Of a DNA stretch of 32,903 nt, positions 20,886 to 23,071 are shown one piece after another; the first letter of the stretch is position 1, and every line of letters begins with the position of its first letter. Made by a program: the position numbers and the translations under genes. The stretch spans positions 1 to 32,903 of the forward strand of contig JASJDD010000026.1 of assembly GCA_030065735.1 (NCBI GenBank), read 5' to 3'. The stretch comes from Crocosphaera sp. GTDB taxonomy: Bacteria; Cyanobacteriota; Cyanobacteriia; Cyanobacteriales; Microcystaceae. The notes under the pieces are model-generated. The model ran no database searches. It worked only from the letters and a program-made list of their open reading frames with translations, and had not been told where the DNA came from.

Positions 20886-20975
20886 ATGGATATTTTAGCT
20901 CTCGGTTGGGTTAGCGTCTTAGCTTTATTTACTTGGTCTATTGCTATGGTTGTTTGGGGACGTAACGGTTTCTAG
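20886..20975 (+). CDS. petN: Cytochrome b6f complex subunit PetN
   Basis: A 29-residue single-span subunit (VIII) of the thylakoid cytochrome b6f complex, which moves electrons from plastoquinol to plastocyanin or cytochrome c6. The reading [18 protein letters not shown], then [11 protein letters not shown], matches PetN at nearly every position, including the invariant WGRNG end. It is too short for normal ORF thresholds. A possible -10 TATAGA lies about 20 bases upstream with a weak TTGTTT 18 bases before it. A small membrane-protein ORF begins just after the stop, and a terminator follows that, so the two probably form one unit. Confidence 0.95.
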
Positions 20976-20979
20976 CACT

Positions 20980-21123
20980 GTGGAAACATCTTCTTTTCTC
21001 AATATACTCTTTCTCACTGCCTTCGTGTTACTCATTTTAGTCAGTGGAGGGATACTTTACCTAACAACCCTAGAATGGCGCGATCGTCGTCGTCAAGACC
21101 GAGATAAAAAAAGCGGACGCTAA
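20980..21123 (+). CDS. Small single-span membrane protein downstream of petN
   Basis: About 47 aa from GTG 20980, five bases after the petN stop. An alternative TTG at 20941 would overlap petN in another frame, so I prefer the GTG. One hydrophobic segment (NILFLTAFVLLILVSGGILYL, about residues 7-28) is followed by a basic tail (WRDRRRQDRDKK). Position suggests cotranscription with petN and perhaps a thylakoid role; that is inference only. No family recognised. Confidence 0.65.
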   Translation: METSSFLNILFLTAFVLLILVSGGILYLTTLEWRDRRRQDRDKKSGR

Positions 21124-21159: not shown

Positions 21160-21213
21160 ATCAGTTACCACTTACCAGTTATCAGTTACCAGTCATCAGT
21201 TATCAGTTACCCG
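21158..21213 (+). repeat. TTATCAG-type heptanucleotide array (8 units)
   Basis: Eight heptamers: TTATCAG, TTACCAC, TTACCAG, TTATCAG, TTACCAG, TCATCAG, TTATCAG, TTACCCG. A GGTCACTGTTCACTGTTTACTG tail-like string follows to about 21247, comparable with that after the 12316 array. Confidence 0.85.
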
Positions 21214-21310
21214 TTAAATTTATCGGTCACTGTTCACTGTTTACTGTATATTCACCCAGATAGGTGAGTGATAACCCCTAAGATGGATGAAGCAATTACC
21301 TAAGGCTAAG

Positions 21311-21370
21311 GAGTATTCTAGTAGGTGTAGAGGACACAAATATTGATACTCTCTACAGGAGTATGACACC
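21311..21370 (+). promoter_or_regulatory. Possible RNA switch: RBS-sequestering hairpin with competing strand
   Basis: ATACTC (21346-21351) pairs with GAGTAT (21359-21364), which contains the Shine-Dalgarno AGGAG of the 47-aa gene (loop TCTACAG). An identical GAGTAT (21311-21316) upstream can pair with the same ATACTC and would free the ribosome site. This two-state layout is typical of translational riboswitches or thermosensors. The sequence does not match a riboswitch class I know; it lacks the glutamine-riboswitch core. Confidence 0.45.
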
Positions 21371-21514
21371 ATGTCTATCAAAAAAATAACCTTCGATACC
21401 GTTGTTATTCTTGCATTCTTGGTTGGGACAGGTTTGCTCTTTAACTATATCTTAGGAACTCCTTTATCCAATCCTCTCCTCGGTAATACCATCACTACAG
21501 AAGAACAGGCTTAA
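21371..21514 (+). CDS. 47-aa single-span membrane protein
   Basis: Too short for common ORF thresholds. The protein opens MSIKKITFDT, has one hydrophobic span (about residues 10-30, VVILAFLVGTGLLF) and ends PLLGNTITTEEQA. A strong AGGAG lies 9 bases before the ATG, inside a hairpin, and a stem-loop follows the stop. These flanking signals make it a credible gene. It is not PetM, PsbX, PsbT or a HLIP by sequence; function unknown. It sits between petN and the candidate sRNA. Confidence 0.75.
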   Translation: MSIKKITFDTVVILAFLVGTGLLFNYILGTPLSNPLLGNTITTEEQA

Positions 21515-21522
21515 TTCTTGTT

Positions 21523-21553
21523 AGGAGTTCATGATAAAAGTAAGAACTCCTTT
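21523..21553 (+). terminator. Stem-loop after the 47-aa gene
   Basis: AGGAGTTC (21523-21530) pairs exactly with GAACTCCT (21544-21551), followed by TT and a mixed tract. A weak intrinsic terminator is the simplest reading. Confidence 0.5.
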
Positions 21554-21619
21554 CATTCTAACCTTGCTAGTTCACCCAAATAGATGAAGATTTCTAAGAG
21601 GGAATTATGGGAGATTAAG

Positions 21620-21716
21620 AACAGCAAGAATAAAAGTTTTACCTACATCGAGATTTCCTCCTCAGATGTACCAGATGACCTCCTCCACCCTATTTGTAGG
21701 GTGGTTTTTATTTTTT
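21620..21716 (+). ncRNA. Candidate trans-acting small RNA with CCUCC loop
   Basis: No ORF lies between 21515 and 21818. A hairpin of TACATC/GATGTA (21644-21649, 21665-21670) exposes GAGATTTCCTCCTCA as a 15-nt loop, then a single-stranded linker CCAGATGACCTCC leads into a terminator. The two CCUCC elements are complementary to Shine-Dalgarno sequences. The 5' end is a guess, since no clear promoter is seen. The layout is that of mRNA-binding sRNAs in cyanobacteria such as PsrR1, but I cannot claim homology. Confidence 0.5.
21685..21716 (+). terminator. Strong intrinsic terminator
   Basis: CCACCCTA (21685-21692), loop TTTG, TAGGGTGG (21697-21704), then TTTTTATTTTTT. The perfect 8-bp stem and long T-run are a textbook rho-independent terminator. 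No ORF ends nearby except the 47-aa gene 170 bases upstream, which has its own stem-loop; hence the sRNA proposal. Confidence 0.85.
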
Positions 21717-21818
21717 AAGTGATTAAAAACCTTCATTATACGTTAACTATTCAAGCGGATTTCATATTACAATAACATTGAACTATTCTCCATTCCCTAG
21801 CCTGTAGAACTATAGAAT

Positions 21819-22883: not shown

Positions 22884-22964
22884 TTTCTGACTTCTGACTT
22901 CTGTGCGATAGCGCATGGTAGTAGTGAGGAACTTCTGACTTCTGACTTCTGACTTCTGACTTCG
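22884..22964 (+). repeat. Dispersed heptanucleotide repeat, copy 3
   Basis: TTCTGAC heptamers, one core module CTGTGCGATAGCGCATGG plus TAGTAGTGAGGAA, then five further heptamers. The 40 bases at 22898-22937 are identical to 13663-13702, in the same orientation. Confidence 0.88.
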
Positions 22965-23071
22965 TTAACACCCCATCAACATTGATCCTAATCTTAGGCA
23001 AAATGTCCAAACGGTGTAACTTTCTGCTAATATCTTAGAGAAACGTTAAGAAACATTACAATTTTATATAA

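Follow-up and report, generated by a model that had tools for sequence, protein, structure and literature searches.

A conserved candidate small RNA with two anti-Shine-Dalgarno tracts, associated with a small-protein gene in Crocosphaera and retained in probable diatom endosymbionts

In Crocosphaera sp. (contig JASJDD010000026.1, of which 32,903 nt, here called the window, were analysed), an intrinsic terminator lies between a gene for a 47-aa protein and a TrpD2-like gene, which raises the question of what kind of element this terminator closes. An earlier note proposed a small RNA (sRNA) that displays an anti-Shine-Dalgarno loop and that might be linked to photosynthesis through its place beside petN. 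The parts on which this proposal was built, a 6-bp stem TACATC/GATGTA with TTTCCTCCTC in its loop and a perfect 8-bp terminator followed by a T-run, are indeed present (Table 1), the tail after the terminator stem, TTTTTATTTTTT, reaching position 21716. The CCTCC described in the linker was also found, at 21679-21683 and again at 21682-21686, but this final copy overlaps the terminator stem by 2 nt.

Table 1. Positions in the window of the predicted sRNA, its parts and the associated upstream features.
Feature	Position	Strand	Details
Promoter motif copy 1	21251..21267	+	TTCACCCAGATAGGTGA, near-palindromic, 5' of the 47-aa gene
47-aa protein gene	21371..21514	+	one hydrophobic stretch; Kyte-Doolittle 19-residue maximum 2.17
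Promoter motif copy 2	21571..21587	+	TTCACCCAAATAGATGA, 5' of the sRNA
Putative extended -10	21608..21616	+	TGGGAGATT in the window, TGGGATATT in several relatives; conserved alignment block
Predicted sRNA, about 90 nt	21623..21716	+	start predicted; end set by the terminator
Hairpin 1	21644..21670	+	TACATC 21644-21649 / GATGTA 21665-21670; fold adds GAG/CTC
Anti-Shine-Dalgarno tract 1	21654..21663	+	TTTCCTCCTC, between the arms of hairpin 1
Anti-Shine-Dalgarno tract 2	21676..21683	+	TGACCTCC
Intrinsic terminator	21685..21716	+	8-bp stem 21685-21692/21697-21704, T-rich tail

A 216-nt query has matches in 11 of 59 relatives, with the genome of the window counted: all nine genomes of the Crocosphaera set, G016 (g9) and G010 (g3). 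The Crocosphaera set consists of the window genome (G000) and G001-G008, that is, six Crocosphaera genomes including C. watsonii WH 8501, Cyanothece sp. BG0011 and the unicellular cyanobacterium SU3. Throughout this set, about 70 nt (21640-21709, not counting the terminator loop) form a nearly invariant core, which is found in three further genera as well; over the 11 sequences, which represent three genera, 60 of 82 core columns are invariant. Unlike the core, the terminator loop and the DNA past the terminator drift. Model R1 matched 17 of 50 family genomes; with G021, which was found by a pattern search allowing up to two mismatches, the carriers number 18 and belong to four genera; among 388 genomes of the order, the same core pattern was found in 17, missing G033. 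A search of 38 family genomes with model R2 gave E <=1.2e-16 in the six known carriers that had been supplied to it and at best 1.7e-3 outside these six, some match at E <=1 being present in 30 of the 38. All seven g14 genomes carry the core and keep tract 1, the spacer, TGACCTC and then the terminator, with small variants in G021 (GCTTTCC), G028 (CTCTTC) and G033 (a 4-nt insertion).

Alignment A3, which comprises 14 of the 18 carriers (the near-duplicates G004, G005, G006 and G008 being omitted), shows where the constraint lies. Both TTTCCTC of tract 1 (interrupted in G033 by its insertion) and TGACCTC of tract 2 are invariant in all 14 copies, and a terminator follows on the same strand 3' of the tracts in each of them, whereas hairpin 1 and the terminator loop vary. 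The possibility, raised in the earlier note, that only the terminator would turn out to be conserved is thus reversed. The outer six pairs of the terminator helix are kept in 96.4% of the A3 cells, with a two-sided change at one pair; the pairs of hairpin 1 are kept in 76.2%, three of the six being pairable in most rows and three showing two-sided change. The covariation score of the whole structure was equalled by 26 of 500 shuffles. All 11 sequences of Crocosphaera, g9 and g3 have the uninterrupted 6-bp display stem, but it does not form in the g14 folds, and a universal display role for hairpin 1 was therefore rejected. Residual hairpin 1 pairing may exist in g14; a shifted GUUUU/(A or G)GAAC stem was also considered there and dropped, being worth only +0.2 to +0.3 kcal/mol.

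Positions 21584-21718 fold at -30.7 kcal/mol (z -1.19), a stability that is by itself unexceptional, because 21 of 200 shuffled sequences fold equally well or better. The same interval contains a 44-aa ORF, but a coding function was discarded since the frame is not conserved: from the equivalent ATG, the ORF spans the core in 3 of 10 genomes (G000, G003 and G008), and in the remaining seven it is cut short after 3-16 codons. This lack of a conserved frame, together with the insertion in G033, backs the sRNA reading. Transcription is predicted to start at about 21623, and the sigma-70 promoter scan listed no site at the sRNA or at the putative -10 (Table 1).

Several of the g14 carriers have reduced genomes. 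Two of them, G028 and G033 (sizes 2,794,318 and 3,020,309), are probably the spheroid bodies of Epithemia turgida and Rhopalodia gibberula, respectively, and G021 (4,679,413) is probably Rippkaea orientalis PCC 8801; spheroid-body and R. orientalis PCC 8801 chromosomes are described in PMC11131595. Two more spheroid bodies are probably represented by G069 (3.07 Mb) and G070 (2.48 Mb). The RNA is retained here without intact photosystem I genes: searches for PsaA/PsaB found none in G028 and G070 (and none either in the draft genome G002), and G033 and G069 have fragments, mostly with stops. For G028 and G033, this agrees with the photosystem loss published for both named spheroid bodies (PMC5638926). 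Among the four small g14 genomes (G028, G033, G069 and G070), identity is 91-97% in the core bins (-20 to +39) and 97% in the motif bin, compared with 51-71% in the spacer bins from -180 to -21, 80-82% from -220 to -181 and 40-76% downstream.

The distribution of the RNA is associated with nitrogen fixation. A nifH gene above the cut-off is present in 25 of the 50 family genomes and in 16 of the 18 carriers, the two exceptions being the incomplete genomes G000 (79.7%) and G004 (85%); among non-carriers, 9 have nifH and 23 do not (Fisher p 7e-5, kinship ignored). As the RNA is missing from nine genomes with nifH, the two smallest (G015 and G024) among them, it is not required for nitrogen fixation.

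The genes downstream of the RNA differ between genomes, so that the element is not the leader of one gene; instead, the RNA travels with the upstream gene for the 47-aa protein. A homolog of this gene lies 5' of the RNA in 12 of the 18 carrier loci and none was found at the loci of G028, G033, G067, G069 and G070; the G006 contig begins too near the core to reveal it. To judge from its sequence, the product is a membrane-type protein and would be located in the membrane; it had no match in Pfam or NCBIfam. In a profile search at E 0.01, matches came from 4 of the 148 genomes; two are marginal, the one in G037 (E 0.002) containing a stop and the one in G155 (E 0.006) lying within a 911-aa frame, and no g3 or g14 genome is among the matches listed. 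Identity with Norf1/AtpTheta (known from PMC5126843) was considered and rejected in a comparison by profile only, the four g13 genomes listed yielding no match to the profile. The genome of the window contains a second, diverged 47-aa homolog (G000:C152:4410-4541, locus L085, E 1.5e-5), and its single R1 match is the one in the window.

The two genes also share a rare promoter motif. In the window it occurs at two places, both exact, where 0.13 are expected at up to two mismatches, and two occurrences were reached in 1 of 100 shuffles. Its exact form, TTCACCCANNTAGRTGA, has 15 matches in the nine genomes of the Crocosphaera set, all 15 at the cassette locus, compared with none for the reversed pattern. 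Six of these genomes have two exact copies and G001, G006 and G007 have one, the copy before the 47-aa gene being slightly different in G001 and G007. Outside the genus, a copy precedes the RNA in G016 and the 47-aa gene in G010 and G068, and one related copy lies 182-240 nt 5' of the core in G067, G028, G069 and G033; in G070 a near copy was overlooked by the search expression, which found no copy in G021. The motif is probably the site of one regulator and, given that the same motif stands at both predicted Crocosphaera promoters, this regulator probably controls both parts of the cassette. A GGATGAAG half-site was also observed 3' of motif copy 1.

The accessibility of the tracts differs between lineages. 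In the 11 copies from Crocosphaera, g9 and g3, the hairpin loop leaves tract 1 open, at an unpaired probability of 0.99, and tract 2, in the linker, has values of 0.62-0.83 across the 18 genomes when 30 nt upstream are included. In the endosymbionts, tract 1 partly pairs with a downstream GGAA (unpaired 0.18-0.26 in G033, G069 and G070; in G028, 0.73 with 30 nt upstream and 0.25 with 15), which would leave mainly tract 2 exposed.

Searches for potential targets returned few candidate ribosome-binding sites that recur between genomes. Exact 11-nt complements of tract 1 (GAGGAGGAAAT) are rarer than the reversed control in the 18 genomes (119 vs 148, the RNA's own complement included), and recurrent open frames in 80 inspected regions amount to two pairs only. 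The pattern GGAGGAAAN{1,10}ATG gave 174 matches vs 104 for the reversed form in six genomes, and 100 such regions from five of the six contain five recurrent groups. These are a hydrophobic protein of 123-124 aa without family assignment in Pfam (three genomes), a DUF1257 protein (Pfam; two genomes), a protein of two endosymbionts that we take to be ribosomal protein S9, and two groups that are probably not starts because their frames run on upstream or are very short. All these candidates are leads only, as the pattern itself selects strong Shine-Dalgarno sites.

Taken with the two invariant tracts, the conservation of the core in 18 of 50 family genomes upholds the part of the earlier proposal that concerns an sRNA. 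The suggested link to photosynthesis did not hold, because the adjacency to petN is not conserved and the RNA is kept where psaA/psaB are not intact. A PetN-like frame lies upstream in six loci (G000, G001, G002, G005, G007 and G010); a motif search of up to about 1.5 kb upstream found none in G003, G004, G008, G016, G021, G067, G028, G033, G069 and G070, and the upstream DNA of G006 and G068 is too short to judge. Closeness to petN is thus a misleading guide to function.

We consider it likely that the locus is a small-protein/sRNA cassette whose RNA acts in trans as an anti-Shine-Dalgarno regulator that blocks several mRNAs. The 5' half would encode the 47-aa membrane-type protein and the 3' half an sRNA of about 75-90 nt that exposes the pyrimidine tracts UUUCCUC(CUC) and UGACCUC(C), both of which would base-pair with purine-rich Shine-Dalgarno regions and block translation. 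In Crocosphaera, the sRNA would have its own promoter, with the motif common to the small-protein promoter, whereas in the Rippkaea/spheroid-body lineage a longer transcript, with a single motif copy at its start, would probably yield the sRNA from its 3' portion. That the cassette is a dedicated riboregulator of the unicellular nitrogen-fixing lifestyle, in which the small membrane-type protein and the sRNA are under one private regulator and the RNA half was kept in the organelle-like, nitrogen-fixing diatom endosymbionts after photosynthesis and the protein half were lost, is a possibility that we advance with considerable doubt. If true, post-transcriptional control in an emerging nitrogen-fixing organelle would have a candidate in this RNA; in any case, a conserved RNA that is absent from Rfam and survives strong genome reduction offers an entry to post-transcriptional control in nitrogen-fixing unicells.

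Tract sequence that is conserved without a conserved display hairpin, exact complements that are not enriched and unimpressive predicted targets would also be compatible with tracts whose partner is not the Shine-Dalgarno site of an mRNA but a protein (ribosomal protein S1 or an RNA chaperone) or a different RNA (one with GGAGG that is sponged). We regard this as unlikely because both of the separate tracts are complements of the Shine-Dalgarno core and lie largely open in the majority of folds. It is less likely still that the element belongs to the 47-aa mRNA, as a conserved 3' UTR with terminator whose action, through stability or autoregulation, is confined to cis: the frequent presence of the 47-aa homolog upstream and the shared promoter motif would fit, but the core persists in the five genomes that have no such homolog at the locus, and in Crocosphaera a separate motif copy stands directly 5' of the RNA. 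A leader or attenuator of the downstream TrpD2-like gene is suggested by the arrangement in the window and contradicted by synteny, and a chance arrangement is at odds with conservation far above that of the flanks; we give hardly any credence to either.

Comparison with PsrR1 had been recommended in the earlier note, and the two RNAs proved distinct. The PsrR1 core used here, TTGAGTTCTCCTAGATA (22 nt) before a terminator, was taken from hoxH-linked loci that, from their gene position, are presumably PsrR1. It is absent from the element and, within three mismatches, from all nine genomes of the Crocosphaera set, so that the sRNA could in principle be a diverged PsrR1 that fills the same role as a high-light repressor of photosynthesis genes. 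In local alignments with two PsrR1-like loci it scored 30 and 28; the shuffled sequences had 95% points of 27 and reached at most 31 and 35. Such a descent is nevertheless very improbable, because G010 carries both RNAs at different loci (L196 for the PsrR1-like one), the sRNA is kept where psaA/psaB are gone or decayed, and petN is not a constant neighbor. PsrR1 (SyR1) resembles the proposed sRNA in being a cyanobacterial trans-acting sRNA that interacts with ribosome-binding regions, those of psaL, psaJ, chlN and cpcA according to PMC6202907, and differs in its core sequence and locus; its promoter is described as being under RpaB control (PMC12850537).

Rfam gave no match at the curated threshold in the window or in eight related loci, the window having five weak matches below it (E 1.7-7.7), and the titles and abstracts retrieved from the open-licence literature contained no sRNA of this kind from unicellular nitrogen fixers. 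A close analogy in working mode is with the alphaproteobacterial alpha-r14/cuckoo RNAs, whose anti-Shine-Dalgarno motifs are unpaired and whose stems are variable (PMC10746234, PMC3927594). Their member NfeR1, from a nitrogen-fixing symbiont, pairs where translation of ntrBC begins and thereby silences it (PMC10746234), an established case of anti-Shine-Dalgarno silencing that supports the mode of action proposed here. The unpaired state is clear in 11 copies of the sRNA and tract 1 is partly paired in the endosymbionts. However, those RNAs are described as having three hairpins, each with CCUCCUCCC (PMC10746234, PMC3927594), whereas the cyanobacterial sRNA, which has no Rfam match, has one lineage-specific anti-Shine-Dalgarno hairpin besides the terminator, the tracts UUUCCUCCUC and UGACCUCC, and no CCTCCTCCC in 21200-21720. 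The order of a small-protein gene, sRNA and terminator recalls the Rhodobacter ccaF1-CcsR1-4 operon, and short DUF1127 proteins frequently accompany CcsR-like sRNAs (PMC10253847). CcaF1, however, has 71 aa and is an RNA-binding DUF1127 protein whose gene shares a transcript with four sRNAs (PMC10253847), whereas here there is a hydrophobic 47-aa protein with a single RNA and, in the Crocosphaera loci, a second promoter motif. Yfr1 is likewise short and cyanobacterial, and between its 5' stem-loop and its terminator hairpin lies an unpaired stretch that is ultraconserved, but its motif is the undecanucleotide ACUCCUCACAC, which was not found in 21200-21720, and Yfr1 is reported from all cyanobacterial lineages (PMC2190773). 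IsaR1 is a 68-nt iron-stress sRNA of Synechocystis 6803 that is conserved in cyanobacteria (PMC6202907); in five g13 genomes, which are probably Synechocystis-like, model R2 gave no confident match, the best having E 0.019 and 0.037 and covering model positions 52-86 only. By the features compared, the sRNA is not PsrR1, alpha-r14 or Yfr1; it fits an anti-Shine-Dalgarno working mode and matches no family described in Rfam and the literature searched.

Two observations concern the surroundings in the window. The petN gene is followed by a 60-aa hydrophobic frame (20941-21123) that recurs with petN in five relatives and has sub-threshold matches only in Pfam. Intergenic short repeat-like stretches (ATCAGTTACC and TGACTTC units) are seen by eye at 21160-21250 and 22885-22965.
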